Source: Candidatus Desantisiibacteriota bacterium (lineage in GTDB: Bacteria; JACRDZ01). Taken from it: a stretch of DNA of 8,201 nt. The DNA lies in NCBI GenBank assembly GCA_016209155.1, contig JACQWU010000144.1, forward strand, positions 1 to 8,201. Reading direction: 5' to 3'. Every line of letters starts with the position of its first letter. Positions within the stretch are counted from its first letter, which is position 1. The notes beneath the pieces are model-generated. The model searched no databases. It was not told the DNA's origin and was given only the letters and a program-made list of their open reading frames with translations. This document shows positions 3 to 8,175 of this stretch, piece after piece. The translations under genes and the position numbers were made by a program.

Positions 3-1412
3 AAATCAAAAGTAGAATCAAAAATTACTTCCAAAGTTGATATGAATATTTCCGGTATTATGATAAAGGAAAAATGGTTTGATAAAAATAAAAAGGTGTT
101 TTATTCTTTGGCTGTTTTAGACAGGAATATTGCTTGTGAAAAATTAAAACAGCAAATTGATAACGAAATAAATGTGATTACAGAACTTTGTACTAAGGCT
201 GAAGAATATAAAAAAAATAAAAAATTAGTTAATGCTTTAAGTAATTACAAAACTGCATATATCAAAAGAGAAAACCTTGATCCTGTTATACATAGATATA
301 ATGTTTTAAATAGTGAAATTGATAAAGCAGGTGATAAGCTTCATCTTTTATCTTTATCAGAAATAAAAAATAAAATAGATGAAATATCGTCCGGAATAGG
401 AATTGCCGCGGTTGATGGGGATAATCTCACAGTGGGAAAGCAATTTTCTATGGATGAAGGGCTTGTTAATCTTTCCGAACAAATTATATCTAAGATATTT
501 GAAAAAGGTGTGATAAAAATTGCTGTTTTTGATTTTGTTGAAGCAAATTCCGGTAAAAGATTAAAATTAAGTAATATTATTGAATCGGAACTACGAACAA
601 TACTTGGGAAAGCAGAAGATATTGTAATAGTTGATTCAGATAATTCACAAATACAGGATTTAAAAGAGAAGGCAAAATCATTAAATGCACAAATGTATCT
701 AACAGGGCTTTATTGGGTAAATAATAATTCTTTGAAAATAAATGCAAAATTAGTTGATATAGATTCAGGAACATTGATTGCGACAGGAAGAGTAAATATT
801 GAAAATAATAATTTCAAAGCAGGTGATTTTGAAGCAATTGAAAAGGCAGAAAAATCTAATTTAACTTATGATTTTGCGGTGGATAAAATGTATTTTGCTA
901 AACGAGAGGAAAAAACTTCTGATCTCAACATAAAAGTATGGACAGATAAAAAAGAATATAAAATCGGCGACCCGCTTACAATATATTTTAAATCAAATAA
1001 AAATTGTTATGTAACTCTATTTGATATCGGGACAAGCGGTAAAATTAATATTTTATTCCCAAATTCATTTTATAAGGATAATGTTATAAATGCTGATGTA
1101 ACGTATTCTATTCCGGGAGATTTTTTAGGATTTAAGATTGAACTCCTGGGACCGGCAGGGATTGAAAGAATTAAAATTGCGGCAACGATTGATAAATTTG
1201 CATTTAAGAGTATTGATTCCGGTGAAAATATTTTAAAAGAGTTAAATGCGCTTTCATCAAAAAATTGGGTAGAAGATAATGTGGAAATCAGGATATTTGA
1301 AAATGAAGAAGCGCAAAAAACGCGAACAACAAGAGGTTTTAGTAAAAAAATAAAACAGGATAAACCGGAATCACCGATAGATATTATTGGAACACCGGGG
1401 GTTAAGCCATAG
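3..1412 (+). CDS. LPP20/FlgO-like/DUF4384 multidomain envelope protein, 5' end missing
   Basis: The frame is open to the left edge of the window, so the ATG at 42 is probably internal and the real start, with any signal peptide, lies upstream. Numbering from that Met: residues 1-35 look like the end of an LPP20/FlgT-type domain (FYSLAVLDR); 36-120 are charged and helical; about 140-260 resemble a FlgO/CsgG-type fold (IAVFDF at 160-165, then a VDIDSGTLIATG strand); about 294-385 match the DUF4384 pattern (KVWTDKKEYKIGDPLTIYF, then ILFPN). A basic, Pro-containing tail follows. Proteins of this build are usually exported or lipid-anchored and of unknown biochemical role. Domain names come from motif memory, not a search. 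It lies 134 bp upstream of the CHASE2/sigma-54 gene on the same strand, so a joint envelope-sensing role is possible but inferred. Its TAG stop abuts a repeat foot, giving TAGTAG. Confidence 0.8.
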   Translation, partial: KSKVESKITSKVDMNISGIMIKEKWFDKNKKVFYSLAVLDRNIACEKLKQQIDNEINVITELCTKAEEYKKNKKLVNALSNYKTAYIKRENLDPVIHRYNVLNSEIDKAGDKLHLLSLSEIKNKIDEISSGIGIAAVDGDNLTVGKQFSMDEGLVNLSEQIISKIFEKGVIKIAVFDFVEANSGKRLKLSNIIESELRTILGKAEDIVIVDSDNSQIQDLKEKAKSLNAQMYLTGLYWVNNNSLKINAKLVDIDSGTLIATGRVNIENNNFKAGDFEAIEKAEKSNLTYDFAVDKMYFAKREEKTSDLNIKVWTDKKEYKIGDPLTIYFKSNKNCYVTLFDIGTSGKINILFPNSFYKDNVINADVTYSIPGDFLGFKIELLGPAGIERIKIAATIDKFAFKSIDSGENILKELNALSSKNWVEDNVEIRIFENEEAQKTRTTRGFSKKIKQDKPESPIDIIGTPGVKP

Positions 1413-1495
1413 TAGGGGCCGGATTTATCCGGCCCGTTTAATGGATTTGATGAATCAAAATCAAAAAACGCGGGTTTGATGAATCAAACCCCTAC
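1412..1495. repeat. BIME-like inverted pair of GTAG-foot palindromes
   Basis: The element opens with GTAGGGG (1412-1418) and closes with its complement CCCCTAC (1489-1495). The left arm is a perfect 9-bp hairpin, GGGCCGGAT (1416-1424) with ATCCGGCCC (1427-1435). The right arm is another, GGGTTTGAT (1472-1480) with ATCAAACCC (1483-1491). A smaller hairpin, TTTGAT/ATCAAA (1446-1459), lies between. The layout of foot, palindrome, spacer, inverse palindrome and inverse foot matches REP/inverse-REP pairs, whose foot is classically GTAG. It starts on the last base of the upstream gene's stop codon. Arms recur at 1500, 2286, 2351, 4345 and 4399. Confidence 0.85.
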
Positions 1496-1499
1496 AGAG

Positions 1500-1524
1500 G
1501 TAGGGGTTCGATTTATCGAACCCG
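1500..1524 (+). repeat. Single GTAG-foot palindrome unit
   Basis: A lone REP-like unit in + orientation: foot GTAGGGG, then GGGTTCGAT (1504-1512) paired with ATCGAACCC (1515-1523) across a TT centre, then G. Only four bases (AGAG) separate it from the inverse unit ending at 1495, so the two form a foot-to-foot pair spanning 1471-1524. The same foot-to-foot arrangement occurs inside the next gene at 2286-2375 with a 40-nt spacer. Confidence 0.85.
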
Positions 1525-1546: not shown

Positions 1547-4348
1547 ATGTATGCTAAAAAAATGCAAATATATATTGGGATTGGGATAATTTGCTCTATC
1601 CTTACCATCATTTTCACATCACTTTTTTCCGATGTTTTTAATGATTGGGAATTAAAAACTTATGATTACCGGATGAAGCTGCGGAGTGAAATAAAAGTTT
1701 CTCCGGATATTATTCTTGTGGATATAGATGATCGAAGTATTAATGCTATCGGCAGATGGCCGTGGGATCGCACGATACATGCTAAAATAATTGATAAGCT
1801 TACGGGAAGCGGCGCTAAAATTATTGCTTATGATATTTTTTTTAATGCGTCAACTGATAAAAAATCTGATAACTTGCTTGCTGAAGCAAGTAAAAAAGCA
1901 AATAGAGTATATTATCCGGTTGGTTTTGATTTTTCTGAAGTTACCGGTGTAAATAAGAATGATGAAATATCTTATGTGGAAAAATTGGGGCAATATAGTT
2001 TTGGGAAATTTATTGGTGATACTAATGATTTATTATCTGTAAATAGAGCGATATTGCCTATCGAAGAAATTTTAAAAGCTTCAAAAGGTGTCGGGCATAT
2101 ATCATCGAATAAAGATATTGACGGAAAAATTAGAAGGGTTCCATTAATTGTAAAAGTGGATGATATGCTTTTCCCATCATTTGGGCTTGCAAGTTTATTG
2201 GATTACCTGGATGTTTCGAGAGATAATATTGTTATAAAATTGGGGGAAAGTATAACTTTAAAATCTGCGGTTGTAAATAAAATAGCGGGCTCGATGAATC
2301 GAGCCCCTACATTAGAATCCCGTGCGGCATTAAATGCCAATGAAAAAATTGTAGGGGTTCGATTCATCGAACCCGTGTTTGGATCAAATCAAGTAAACGA
2401 CAAAAATAGAAAAGATATTGTTATACCGATTGATAATAAAGGGATGATGCTTATTAATTATGCAGGACAATGGAATAAAACCTATAAACATTATTCATTT
2501 AAAAATTTGTTAGATAATGAACTGCAAAATGATGTTTTTAAAGACAAATTTGTAATTGTAAGCAATGCCGCCTCAGGATTTGATTTAAAACAAGTACCTC
2601 TTCAAAATAGCTATCCGGGAGGCGGAATACATGCAAATATTATTAATACAATCTTAACAGAAAATTTTCTTATTGAACCAAATTCAGCTGTAAAAATCAT
2701 AATTATTGTATTGCTTGGAATAATAGGCGCATTAAGCGGTGTATTCACAAGGTGGGAGCTGAAAATAGCTGTAAATTTTATTATTTTATTTATTTATTTT
2801 ACTACTGTTTATTATTTATTCAAACTCAATGGAATCGTATTAAATGTTTTATCCCCGACAATGGCATGTATATTCGGCGCTGTAAGTGTGTCTTTTTATG
2901 AAACACAATTTGAAAAAAGAAATGCAGTAAGATTAAATACGGAAAATCAAAAATTAGAAGAAGAACTGCTGAAGATTACTACGCAACTTAATGAAAAAGA
3001 GAATGAAATAATAAAAATACAAAAAGAACTTTCAATTCAATCCACATCTGTTCCACAATTAAATGAAAAAAGAGATGAAAAAGAGGAACTTGAAATTAAA
3101 AAAATTACTATTTTAAAAAAACTAACACCATCGCAATTTGAAGAATTAAGAAAAGAAGCAGAAAATTTACATATAATAACAAAAGATAGAAACTTACTTG
3201 AAGCATTTGATATGGCAAAGAGAGTCGCGCCCTTTGATCATACTGTATTAATTTTAGGTGAAACAGGTACAGGAAAAGAATTATTCGCCAATGCATTACA
3301 TGCAATGAGCAAGAGGAAAAAACAAAAATTTGCTGTTGTTGAATGTTCTTCTATTAACCTGTCACTTGCGGAAAGTGAATTTTTTGGTTATAAAAAAGGA
3401 TCATTTACAGGAGCCGTCAGCGATAAAGCAGGATTATTTAAGGAAGCAAATAACGGCACGATATTTTTGGATGAAATAGGTGAGCTTCCTTGTGATGTTC
3501 ATCCAAAACTTCTTAGAGTATTACAAAATCGTCAAATAAGACCTGTTGGCAGTAATGAACTAATTGATATTAATGTAAGAGTAATAGCAGCAGGAGATAA
3601 GGATATTGCAAGCGCGGTAAATAATAAAATGTTTAATACAGCGCTTTTTGCACGATTAAATAGATATCCTATTGTTTTACCGGCATTAAGAGAAAGAAAA
3701 GGCGATATCCCGGATTTAGCCGCTGAATTTATTAGAAGACACAAAGAAAAGAAAAATATTCTGGGAATATCAAAAGACGGGATAGAAGAATTGATGAAAT
3801 ACAATTGGCCAAATAATATACGGCAATTAGAAAATATTATTATAAGAACTATTATAAATGCAAATAATGATTATATTCAATTAGATGATGTTAAATATGC
3901 AATGGAACAGGACATTTATAAAAATAATAGCGGGCAAGTGACAAATGTAAAAATACCGGAAGAAAGTTCAGAATGTATTGGAAATGATTATCAAAAAAGG
4001 TTAATTGAAGAATTACGAAAAACCAATTTCAATATAAAAGAAACAGCAGAAATATTAAATATGGGACGAAATACTGTAACCGATAACTTTAAAGGTATAT
4101 GTTTTAAAAATCTTGCAGAAAATAATGGTGATATTAAAAAAACCGCGAATTTAATTGCCGGTCACCCGGATTCATCTGAGAAGCTTGAAAAAAAGATTGC
4201 TGAATATTATGAAAATCTTATTTCTAATGTTAATCAATGTGAGAATGTTGACATAGCCAAACAAAAGGTAAGATTAATTTATAAAAATATTCCCAAAGAA
4301 TATTTTTGTTATATTGATGTTTTAATTGAAAAATATTTCAAATTGTAG
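1547..4348 (+). CDS. Membrane-bound sigma-54 enhancer-binding protein with CHASE2 sensor
   Basis: 933 residues. Segments: TM helix about 7-27; CHASE2 domain about 30-375 (ILVDIDDRSINAIGRWPWDR, later PGGGIHANIINTIL), predicted outside the cytoplasmic membrane; three TM helices about 382-402, 406-427 and 431-452; coiled coil about 455-520; AAA+ sigma-54 activator domain about 545-790; Fis-like HTH at 829-849 (ETAEILNMGRNTV); and a further C-terminal segment of about 80 residues. The AAA+ domain has Walker A GETGTGKE (571-578), a GSFTGA loop (618-623; usual GAFTGA) that contacts sigma-54, Walker B IFLDE (639-643) and sensor II in NNIRQLEN. Predicted role: sense a periplasmic signal and drive open-complex formation at sigma-54 promoters. 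Oddities: residues about 247-277 come from an inserted repeat pair; sensor I reads AAGD rather than AATN; the first arginine of the usual FREDLYYR motif is Asn697, while Arg703 remains. The TAG stop lies inside a repeat foot. The start is supported by AGGGG seven bases upstream. Confidence 0.93.
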   Translation: MYAKKMQIYIGIGIICSILTIIFTSLFSDVFNDWELKTYDYRMKLRSEIKVSPDIILVDIDDRSINAIGRWPWDRTIHAKIIDKLTGSGAKIIAYDIFFNASTDKKSDNLLAEASKKANRVYYPVGFDFSEVTGVNKNDEISYVEKLGQYSFGKFIGDTNDLLSVNRAILPIEEILKASKGVGHISSNKDIDGKIRRVPLIVKVDDMLFPSFGLASLLDYLDVSRDNIVIKLGESITLKSAVVNKIAGSMNRAPTLESRAALNANEKIVGVRFIEPVFGSNQVNDKNRKDIVIPIDNKGMMLINYAGQWNKTYKHYSFKNLLDNELQNDVFKDKFVIVSNAASGFDLKQVPLQNSYPGGGIHANIINTILTENFLIEPNSAVKIIIIVLLGIIGALSGVFTRWELKIAVNFIILFIYFTTVYYLFKLNGIVLNVLSPTMACIFGAVSVSFYETQFEKRNAVRLNTENQKLEEELLKITTQLNEKENEIIKIQKELSIQSTSVPQLNEKRDEKEELEIKKITILKKLTPSQFEELRKEAENLHIITKDRNLLEAFDMAKRVAPFDHTVLILGETGTGKELFANALHAMSKRKKQKFAVVECSSINLSLAESEFFGYKKGSFTGAVSDKAGLFKEANNGTIFLDEIGELPCDVHPKLLRVLQNRQIRPVGSNELIDINVRVIAAGDKDIASAVNNKMFNTALFARLNRYPIVLPALRERKGDIPDLAAEFIRRHKEKKNILGISKDGIEELMKYNWPNNIRQLENIIIRTIINANNDYIQLDDVKYAMEQDIYKNNSGQVTNVKIPEESSECIGNDYQKRLIEELRKTNFNIKETAEILNMGRNTVTDNFKGICFKNLAENNGDIKKTANLIAGHPDSSEKLEKKIAEYYENLISNVNQCENVDIAKQKVRLIYKNIPKEYFCYIDVLIEKYFKL
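2286..2375. repeat. Translated inverted pair of GTAG-foot palindromes inside the CHASE2 gene
   Basis: The left unit, in - orientation, has GGGCTCGAT (2287-2295) paired with ATCGAGCCC (2298-2306) and ends CCCCTAC at 2310. The right unit, in + orientation, starts GTAGGGG at 2351 with GGGTTCGAT (2355-2363) paired with ATCGAACCC (2366-2374). The 40-nt spacer holds a small hairpin, GGCAT/ATGCC (2326-2338). The whole is exactly 90 nt, keeps the frame, contains no stop, and adds about 30 residues (roughly 247-277, including AGSMNRAPT and VGVRFIEP) between two predicted CHASE2 strands. No obvious target duplication was seen at the flanks. Confidence 0.88.
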
Positions 4349-4423
4349 GGGGCGGATTCATCCGGCCCGGTTTCGGGCTTAATAAATTCAATCAAAAACG
4401 GGTTCGATGAATCGAACCCCTAC
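4345..4423. repeat. BIME-like inverted pair between convergent genes
   Basis: Foot GTAGGGG begins at 4345 and the inverse foot CCCCTAC ends at 4423. The left arm, GGGGCGGAT (4349-4357) against ATCCGGCCC (4360-4368), has one G-G mismatch. The right arm, GGGTTCGAT (4400-4408) with ATCGAACCC (4411-4419), is perfect. An alternative stem, GCCCG/CGGGC (4365-4378), overlaps the left arm. The inner side of the right arm carries ATCAAAAACG, similar to the corresponding part of the element at 1412-1495, so the two copies are related beyond their arms. The left foot supplies the TAG stop of the upstream gene; the right end is 4 bp from the stop of the - strand GGDEF gene. Confidence 0.87.
4394..4419 (-). 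terminator. Probable intrinsic terminator of the ispA-dxs-GGDEF unit
   Basis: Read on the - strand, the perfect 9-bp stem of the repeat arm (4419-4400) is followed by G and then five T residues (4398-4394), nine bases after the GGDEF stop codon. Stem plus T-run is the intrinsic terminator layout. The T-run is short, so efficiency is uncertain. The hairpin belongs to the repeat, so termination would be a co-opted function. Confidence 0.5.
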
Positions 4424-4427
4424 AAAT

Positions 4428-5114
4428 TTATTTTGAAACTATACCGCTTTTCCCCTCTTTTTTCGCTTCACTTGCCGCTTCCTCTGCCTGGTTTATAATA
4501 GTGTCAATATTTAAAACTGTGCTGTCAAAAGTTTTTATCCCTATACTGACGGTAAATTGAATTTCTTTATTTTTATATTTAACATGGGCTTTTGATATTT
4601 TATTCCTTAAACGCGTGGCAAATTCAAATGAACCTGTTTTATCTGTGATATCAATTTTGCGTTTATTATGAAGACATATTTGTGATGTCATTTTTAATAC
4701 TTCATTACCGGCGGTATGACCATAGATATCATTAATTTTATTGTGTGAGTCTATATCAAAAATCAATACAGAAAAAATAGTTTTATATCTTATTGCCCGA
4801 TAAAATTCCTTTTGTGCTAATTCTAAAAAATGCTGTGTATTTAATGCCTGTGTCAGTTCATCGGTTACAGTAAGTGTCTCAACTTTTTGTTCCGCAGTAT
4901 CCAATCTGTAAATCAATTTAATAATAAAAGCGATTAAAAACGGCGCAATTATGCCCGGAGCAATTATTGATGTAACTATTGTAATAGCATGTATTGATTT
5001 ATAAATTATTTCATCTATTAAAATTGCAAGAAGCACTGATATGATTATTGCAATGATAGTATTAATTATTATCATTTTTATTGTGCCAATGCTTTTTATT
5101 AATTTTGTATTCAT
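4428..5114 (-). CDS. Membrane protein with degenerate GGDEF-family domain lacking the catalytic hairpin
   Basis: 228 residues from the ATG at 5114, chosen because it follows the dxs stop by 7 bp with AAAGAG (5130-5125) upstream; an ATG at 5150 inside dxs has no visible ribosome binding site. TM helices lie at about 13-35 and 41-66, then a linker, then a GGDEF-like domain from residue 84 (TDELTQALN, FDIDSHNKINDIYGH 119-133, AGNEVL 135-140, VSIGI 189-193). Diguanylate cyclases make cyclic di-GMP using a GG(D/E)EF hairpin. Here RKIDI (152-156) runs straight into TDKTGSFEFATRLR (157-170), which matches the helix that normally follows the hairpin, so about 15 residues including GGDEF appear to be missing. 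The Asp of AGDEVL that binds guanine is Asn137, and the C-terminal ADxALYxAK is AEEAASEAK. Cyclase activity is therefore very unlikely. A role as a c-di-GMP receptor or scaffold, or decay in progress, are the options. Confidence 0.87.
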   Translation of the reverse strand: MNTKLIKSIGTIKMIIINTIIAIIISVLLAILIDEIIYKSIHAITIVTSIIAPGIIAPFLIAFIIKLIYRLDTAEQKVETLTVTDELTQALNTQHFLELAQKEFYRAIRYKTIFSVLIFDIDSHNKINDIYGHTAGNEVLKMTSQICLHNKRKIDITDKTGSFEFATRLRNKISKAHVKYKNKEIQFTVSIGIKTFDSTVLNIDTIINQAEEAASEAKKEGKSGIVSK

Positions 5115-5121
5115 TGATTTA

Positions 5122-7002
5122 TCACTCTTTCTTAATAATTCTGGATACAATACTATTTATATTAATATTGTATTTATCGCGTAAAATTTCAGGATGACCA
5201 TGTTCTATAAATTTGTCCGGTAATCCTATGCGGATTATTTTAACCTGTGATAACATGTTTTCCTGCTCAAGAAATTCGATAATTGCACTGCCGAAACCTC
5301 CAGACAGCACATTTTCCTCAATGGTTATAAAACATGGAATATCCCGGGCAAGTTTTTTGAGCAAATCAGTATCAAGAGGCTTAACAAATCTGGTATTAAT
5401 TACTGTGGCAGATATATTATGTTTTTCTTTGAGCACTGTGGCAGTTTCCTCTGCTATTCGCACTGTAAATCCAAAACCGAATATCGCCATATCTTTTCCT
5501 TCCTTTAAAACCTCACTTTTCCCTATCGGCAGAATTTTTAATTCTTCATCCATATTTACTCCCAGTACTTCAGCGCGCGGATAGCGTATACAAACCGGGT
5601 GTTCATTATATTCTATCGCTGTTTTGAGCATATGACGCAATTCGTTCTCATCTTTTGGAGACATGATCACCAGATTCGGAATCAGCCGGAGGTAAGAAAT
5701 ATCAAAAATACCCTGATGTGTTTTTCCGTCCTGCCCAACTATTCCGCTTCTATCTATTGCAAAAATTACAGGTAAATTTTGAATGCATACATCATGTATT
5801 ATCTGATCAAACGCTCTCTGCAAAAAAGTCGAATAAATGGCGACAACAGGCTTAAGCCCCTGTTTGCACATGCCTGCCGCCATAGTCACAGCATGCTGTT
5901 CGGCTATTCCAACATCAAAAAAGCGGTCTGGATATGTGTTTGCAAAATCCTGCAGCCCTGTGCCATCAGGCATTGCGGCTGTAATAGCTACAAGATTATT
6001 ATATTTTTTACCAAGCTGAGTAATCGTACTGCTGAATATTTTTGTATATGAAGGACGTTCTCCGGCTATTTTTATTACTTTACCTGTTGCTATATCAAAT
6101 TTATCAACTCCATGATAGGACACAGGGAAATTTTCCGCGGGGGCATATCCTTTTCCTTTTTTTGTTATTATATGAAAAAGAACCGGCCCTTTCATATATG
6201 TAATATTCTGAAGAATTTTTATAAGATTATTCAAATCATGACCGTATGTGGGTCCGATATAATCAAATCCCATTTCTTCAAATATCATGCCTGGAGCAAA
6301 AATAGCACGCATATTTTCATCAAAACGTTTGGCAATATTATGCACTTTATTCCCGACTTTTGGTATAGACTTTAAAAAACCGTCAAATTCTTCTCTGAAT
6401 TTTGTATATGCCGGGTTGGAAAATATCCGTGTTAGATAGGAAGCAAGTGCACCTACTTTCGGGGAGATAAACATTTCATTATCATTTAGAATAACAATTA
6501 AATCTTTTTTTAAATGACCCGCGTTATTTAATGCTTCAAATGCTATACCTGAAGTCATTGAACCGTCACCGATTACAGCCGCAACTTTATAGTTAAGTTT
6601 TTTCAGGTCTCTGGCGCAAGCCATGCCAAGAGCAGCAGAAATAGATGTTCCGCTGTGACCGGTATCAAAAACATCATAGATGCTTTCACTTGTGCTTGGA
6701 AACCCGCTTATCCCTTCATGCTGACGTAAAGTAGAGAATCTGTCTTTACGTCCTGTGAGAAGTTTATGAGCATAACATTGATGTCCCACATCCCAGATAA
6801 TCTTATCCTGAGGTGTATCAAGCACATAATGCAGAGCAATCGTAAGTTCAACAACACCAAGGCTTGAGGCAAGATGACCGCCGGTTTTAGACACAGTTTC
6901 AATTATAGTTTCTCTTATTTCCTGTGCAAGCTGGGGAAGAAGAGATTGATTTATTTTTTTAAGATCACCAGGATCATTAATTAAATCTAAAAGTTTTCCC
7001 AT
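5122..7002 (-). CDS. dxs: 1-deoxy-D-xylulose-5-phosphate synthase
   Basis: 626 residues, normal for the family. This thiamine-diphosphate enzyme condenses pyruvate with glyceraldehyde 3-phosphate, the first step of the MEP pathway to IPP and DMAPP, in the cytosol. Seen in order: GGHLASSLG with His43, DVGHQCYAHKLLTGR (71-85), TGHSGTSISAALGMA (114-128), the ThDP-binding GDG (145-147) through to NDN (173-175), AEQHAVTMAAGM with the catalytic Glu368, and DGKTHQG with His429 (425-431), then the C-terminal transketolase domain with LSGGFGSAIIEFLEQE. All expected catalytic residues are present. The start at 7002 has GAGGT six bases upstream. It lies 106 bp downstream of ispA and 7 bp before the GGDEF gene, so co-transcription is likely. 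The family's 1-deoxyxylulose product also feeds thiamine and pyridoxal synthesis. Confidence 0.97.
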   Translation of the reverse strand: MGKLLDLINDPGDLKKINQSLLPQLAQEIRETIIETVSKTGGHLASSLGVVELTIALHYVLDTPQDKIIWDVGHQCYAHKLLTGRKDRFSTLRQHEGISGFPSTSESIYDVFDTGHSGTSISAALGMACARDLKKLNYKVAAVIGDGSMTSGIAFEALNNAGHLKKDLIVILNDNEMFISPKVGALASYLTRIFSNPAYTKFREEFDGFLKSIPKVGNKVHNIAKRFDENMRAIFAPGMIFEEMGFDYIGPTYGHDLNNLIKILQNITYMKGPVLFHIITKKGKGYAPAENFPVSYHGVDKFDIATGKVIKIAGERPSYTKIFSSTITQLGKKYNNLVAITAAMPDGTGLQDFANTYPDRFFDVGIAEQHAVTMAAGMCKQGLKPVVAIYSTFLQRAFDQIIHDVCIQNLPVIFAIDRSGIVGQDGKTHQGIFDISYLRLIPNLVIMSPKDENELRHMLKTAIEYNEHPVCIRYPRAEVLGVNMDEELKILPIGKSEVLKEGKDMAIFGFGFTVRIAEETATVLKEKHNISATVINTRFVKPLDTDLLKKLARDIPCFITIEENVLSGGFGSAIIEFLEQENMLSQVKIIRIGLPDKFIEHGHPEILRDKYNININSIVSRIIKKE

Positions 7003-8108: not shown

Positions 8109-8122
8109 GGAGGATTTATGTA
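8109..8122 (+). promoter_or_regulatory. Ribosome-binding-site-like GGAGG followed by ATG-TAG
   Basis: GGAGG (8109-8113) precedes ATG (8118-8120) by four bases, and the next codon is TAG. The G of the ATG is the first base of the GTAGCGG repeat foot, so the repeat closes the reading frame at once. This may be the interrupted leader of a + strand gene lying beyond the right edge. It could equally be chance. Confidence 0.25.
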
Positions 8123-8175
8123 GCGGCTGGATTACTATCCAGCTTAAACATGGCGAATGGTAATTCGCCCGCTAC
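8120..8175. repeat. Second-class GTAG-foot inverted pair (GTAGCGG)
   Basis: Outer ends GTAGCG (8120-8125) and CGCTAC (8170-8175) are complementary. Inside are two perfect 7-bp hairpins: GCTGGAT (8126-8132) with ATCCAGC (8137-8143), loop TACT; and GGCGAAT (8152-8158) with ATTCGCC (8163-8169), loop GGTA, which is TACC on the other strand. An 8-nt linker separates them. The plan equals that of the elements at 1412 and 4345, but foot and loop differ, so it is a distinct class. It occupies most of the intergenic DNA right of the ispA promoter; the remaining 26 bases to the edge show nothing recognisable. Confidence 0.82.

Follow-up and report, generated by a model that had tools for sequence, protein, structure and literature searches.

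The stretch of DNA that we analysed, called here the window (8,201 nucleotides), is one contig (C60) of a draft genome of 3.08 Mb in 352 contigs, 79% complete. The host gene of the element studied here, at 1547–4348 on the forward strand, encodes a protein of 933 aa in which the ORF list and Pfam place a CHASE2 sensor domain (PF05226, residues 21–394), a sigma-54 interaction AAA domain (PF00158, residues 543–709), and, downstream of the latter, an AAA lid and then a Fis-type HTH. Its reading frame is intact and ends on a TAG stop codon at 4346–4348. Upstream of the gene lie three intergenic REP copies, i.e., at 1412–1436 (forward strand, CCG stem), 1471–1495 (reverse strand, TTT stem), and 1500–1524 (forward strand, TTC stem), of which the second pairs with both neighbors, head-head with the first and tail-tail with the third. 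Two more copies, at 4345–4369 (forward strand) and 4399–4423 (reverse strand), stand head-head across a 29-nt spacer where the host gene ends, and the GTAG of the first provides the TAG stop of this gene. Four more genes in the contigs that we read also end on the GTAG of a REP. The REPs at 1412–1524 and 4345–4423 show several unusual stems (CCG, TTT, CTC, and GCG), TTC and CTT being the common ones elsewhere, and a REP pair of a second GTAG family (GTAGCGG...) occupies 8120–8174, close to the contig end. At 4428–5150 on the reverse strand, a gene encodes a GGDEF-family protein with the signature TGSFEF in place of GGDEF, which suggests that diguanylate cyclase activity is probably absent. No match to Rfam was found within the window.

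Another pair lies inside the gene. Both of its copies are one 25-nt hairpin repeat, GTAGGGG-NNN-GATTYATC-NNN-CCCG, made of a GTAG foot, a 9-bp stem, and a 2-nt loop. The first copy, GTAGGGGCTCGATTCATCGAGCCCG, occupies 2286–2310 on the reverse strand and is read as (A)GSMNRAPT; the second, GTAGGGGTTCGATTCATCGAACCCG, occupies 2351–2375 on the forward strand and is read as VGVRFIEP. Their GTAG ends face inward (tail-tail) across a 40-nt spacer (2311–2350, forward strand, the TLESRAALNANEKI region), the sequence of which had no second occurrence in the loci searched. Taken as an inverted repeat, the arms 2286–2311 and 2350–2375 are 92% complementary, lie 38 nt apart, and span 90 nt in total. Of the three sense frames, a single one stays stop-free over these 90 nt, namely the gene's own, in which the pair is read as GSMNRAPT-LESRAALNANEKI-VGVRFIEP. 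Our coordinates agree here with an earlier note on this DNA, which had described an inverted, stop-free pair of exactly 90 nt in the frame of the gene. The predicted RNA fold of the pair reaches −54.8 kcal/mol (z = −9.3), and a strong mRNA hairpin would form from it.

The alignment with CHASE2 homologues, a check that the earlier note had proposed, points in the same direction as its claim of an insertion. Indeed, the SITL-to-VIPI loop counts 53 residues in the window protein and 4–14 in 27 homologues, with 13–14 in the most similar homologue type. None of these 27 carries an alignable segment of the same length free of the palindrome, and since all 27 lack the segment, the comparison argues for a real insertion rather than native sequence. 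That a native variable loop should be palindromic by coincidence draws some support from the varying length of this loop among homologues (4–14 residues); against it, the homologue maximum is 14 residues at this place, and the segment contains two copies of a 25-nt repeat found genome-wide. The 27 homologues led us to reject this reading, the probability of which we hold to be practically negligible. The extra sequence amounts to ~40 residues (~120 nt), i.e., ~30 nt beyond the 90-nt REP pair. Hence, the ~30 added residues of the earlier note describe the pair correctly and fall short of the whole difference from homologues. From the alignment and the low pLDDT, the inserted stretch covers approximately 2270–2390 (forward strand), with ends that are not fixable within a variable loop. 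Given the ~30 nt that the REP pair does not account for, and a spacer for which no second copy was seen, two insertion events, or later slippage, are possible. At the flanks, no clear target-site duplication was seen by eye, GTAAATAAAATAG and GTAAACGACAAAAATAG resembling each other weakly.

The place of the insert in the protein was modeled using AlphaFold2 with a 26-sequence alignment (mean pLDDT 88.8, pTM 0.87). Residues 247–251 and 259–284 have a pLDDT below 50, and this stretch sits between two strands (235–242 and 288–294), that is, in the loop of a beta-hairpin. The insert is thus predicted to be a floppy, exposed loop, in line with the sensor loop that had been predicted from the letters. 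PDB sequence and fold searches returned no usable solved CHASE2 structure. The collections searched contain no close relative in which the site is empty, and their nearest homologues are ~30% identical; the contig search of relatives' genomes gave one distant homologue, and none of the relatives searched belongs to the same family.

On the other hand, a short-read assembly could have fused two loci through the repeat, in which case the in-frame pair would be absent in the cell. The genome is a draft of many contigs, REPs are classic assembly breakpoints, and several other REP copies lie near contig ends. However, the two CHASE2 halves that flank the insert align to the same homologues, in the right order and frame, and the codon-usage score is high on either side in one frame throughout (24.6 upstream, 23.0 downstream), while a random join rarely rebuilds one domain in frame. 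We consider such a chimera highly improbable, and an insertion carried by the cell remains our reading of the segment.

The repeat is abundant outside the gene. We read around one-third of the genome completely, and the gene calls beyond the window are our own, made from ORFs and codon scoring. The core pattern gave 43 matches in the genome and its reversed pattern, used as a control, gave 0; these counts and the predicted RNA fold go well past what chance would produce. With up to 3 mismatches, 100 contigs contain 52 copies of the window's REP family, 45 of them paired or grouped. In the part of the genome that was read, 21 pairs are head-head and 2 are tail-tail, both of the latter within the window. 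The repeats had been described as otherwise intergenic, and pairs indeed occur elsewhere, whereas the intragenic pair differs from the usual head-head arrangement by being tail-tail. A scan of the same 100 contigs (971 kb) for GTAG followed by a hairpin returned 108 raw hits, as compared with 2–22 for five other tags. Their feet and stems distinguish at least seven families of GTAG hairpins. Once overlapping hits are merged, 96 sites remain, of which 21 are in coding sequence, while 88% of the DNA is coding; genes therefore contain far fewer REPs than their share of the DNA would predict, and the intragenic survivors are exceptional. Among 386 genomes, the window's REP family is present in 19, across phyla.

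This depletion also bears on the idea that the insert is adaptive, i.e., that the sensor is under the control of the added loop or of the hairpin in its mRNA, through RNA stability, ribosome pausing, or ligand access. The very stable fold predicted for the mRNA and the location of the insert in a sensory domain speak for it. Against it, the structure prediction gives a disordered loop, and the scarcity of REPs in genes fits insertions that are mostly harmful, with neutral survivors. An adaptive role appears to us unlikely, and an effect on the sensor that is none or slight is the likeliest outcome.

Judged by its foot, stem, loop, and dimer habit, the segment is a set of REPs from the GTAG superfamily, a class of elements mobilized by RAYT/TnpA-REP tyrosine transposases. 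The genome itself has six PF01797 hits, corresponding to three RAYT genes and three Y1 genes. The REP pairs that flank the three RAYT genes (on C349, C89, and C106) belong to other families, and the three Y1 genes have no flanking REPs, although some have long inverted repeats nearby. A RAYT gene bearing the window's own REP family was not found in this 79% complete genome, and the RAYTs on C208, C165, and C257 are also without it. Such genes are present in other genomes. In a genome of the same phylum (G003, L321:4982–5470), a RAYT gene contains GTAGGGGCGCAATTCATTGCGCCC and GTAGGGGCGTGATTCATCACGCCC in frame, read as VGAQFIAP and GVMNHAPT, and in a genome of another phylum (G228, L325) the window's family is read in frame inside a RAYT gene as VGAQLIAP and GMMNHAPT. 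Over RAYT loci of many genomes (L285–L314 and L315–L334), 28 of 30 short ORFs carry an in-frame GTAG REP, usually paired and located shortly past the HuH motif, with peptides such as VGAGLVPAQ...GATTRVAPT. We do not present these RAYT-internal REPs as a new observation; in-frame REPs within tnpA-REP genes of TnpA-Y1 subclass 2.4 were already reported by Quentin et al. 2018 (PMC6006769). On C89 (L121:5132–6232), an N6-adenine methylase gene contains, in frame, a RAYT gene with its REP pairs, and the adjoining helicase and methylase ORFs contain further in-frame REPs. These host genes look frameshifted and may be decaying.

A different assignment, to Rickettsia palindromic elements (RPE) or to a MITE, deserves consideration. 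RPE are the best-known in-frame intragenic palindromes, and, as here, they are palindromes that are read in frame as part of proteins unrelated to one another. However, the GTAG foot, the 9-bp stem with a TY loop, the dimers, and the in-frame copies in RAYT genes are REP features, and intragenic rickettsial REP-like repeats have been assigned to the CGTC superfamily (PMC3733652). The window element has a GTAG foot and not the CGTC foot of RPE-4 and RPE-6, and is a RAYT-type REP, a dimer of short units; it is set apart by its foot rather than by comparison with RPE sequences. We rejected RPE membership and regard an RPE or MITE identity as extremely improbable. In drawing the parallel with RPE, the earlier note was right that the GTAG foot is unlike theirs; it missed that a GTAG foot plus a hairpin is the hallmark of REPs, and that intragenic dimers had been published.

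With the REP assignment, in-frame copies can be looked for in proteins other than the transposase. The earlier note had advised a search for related peptides, and one was recovered in the same genome, in a CARDB/Ig-type protein on C288, where the window's REP family is read in frame as GLMNQAPT. This protein has a paralogue on C285, and its C45 paralogue is without the GLMNQAPT segment. In another phylum, a 2-oxoacid dehydrogenase E2 (L347, G312:C52) has a copy of the window's REP family, read as VGARFIAP, in the linker that follows its lipoyl domain, the 1 in-frame case among 50 copies examined in that genome. A further ORF around a REP (G174, L238) looked spurious and was left out of the in-frame count. 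Other REP families are also read in frame, i.e., as SKAEALPY and TGRMPVLL in a 1907-residue Ig/CARDB protein, as SEAEASHY, twice, in the C285 protein, and as VGQAFLPV and CQTGMSDLP in genes on C89. The large paralogous Ig/CARDB proteins (L203:6509–12229, L111:1791–7472, and L112:4394–5986) each contain two to three REP families in frame; the peptides found across them (SKAEALPY, SEAEASHY, TGRMPVLL, VETQCFASPQ, and GLMNQAPT) make them resemble repeat-collecting sites. In the C285 paralogue (L111, ~1850–1920), the frame shifts near a REP and the upstream half of the protein is not in frame with the downstream half, through either a sequencing error or a real frameshift.

All the non-transposase cases of the window's family (both orientations in the window, the CARDB protein, and the E2 linker) are read in the frames used in RAYTs, VGxxFIxP and GxMNxAPT. 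Each REP orientation also has a second stop-free frame, and we estimate the chance of a shared frame at ~1 in 16 (~4 independent events with two open frames each); the agreement with the RAYT frames is suggestive only. REPs might stay translatable through source copies held in a transposase ORF, with copies in other genes surviving mainly in that frame, an idea that we put forward as possible but doubtful.

We consider it very likely that a tail-tail GTAG-REP dimer, non-autonomous and of the RAYT/TnpA-REP type, inserted into the CHASE2 gene, where it persisted as a tolerated in-frame loop. A RAYT acting on single-stranded DNA would have placed the dimer in the gene. The insert would then have been retained as a multiple of three bases read in the sole stop-free sense frame, and tolerated at a site remote from the domain core, in an exposed beta-hairpin loop of variable length; we infer that it was kept through tolerance and not benefit. 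The loop is presumably translated, and the expression "direct evidence" of new protein sequence, used in the earlier note, overstated a case built on DNA sequence only.

This scenario has precedents. Di Nocera, De Gregorio and Rocco 2013 (PMC3733652) described 24 consensus REP families and reported GTAG REPs wholly within ORFs, more than half of these intragenic inserts being dimers or groups that code for 20–30 residues, as well as TAG stop codons provided by REPs. The window has in common with their cases the GTAG foot, the short stem with a TY loop, the dimers read in frame as 20–30 residues in unrelated proteins, the REP-derived TAG stops, and the several REP families per genome. Judged from its reading frame, it combines both of their features, i.e., an intragenic dimer and a REP-derived stop at 4346–4348. 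It differs from them by its sparsely sampled phylum, its CHASE2 sensor host, and its tail-tail dimer with a 40-nt spacer. With the subclass 2.4 REPs of Quentin et al. 2018 it shares REPs of the long canonical type, in which the foot stem is GGG, but its host gene is not the transposase. In-frame intragenic REPs are already published, and the window adds one case.

This case appears to show cleanly how a mobile repeat that is itself non-coding can turn into protein sequence, here in a sensory regulator from a phylum of which few genomes exist. It ties intragenic repeats to RAYT genes that hold the same repeat in frame, and thereby offers a testable reason for stop-free repeats. If the idea of source copies kept in the transposase ORF is true, RAYT systems would be a source of pre-tested linker peptides.
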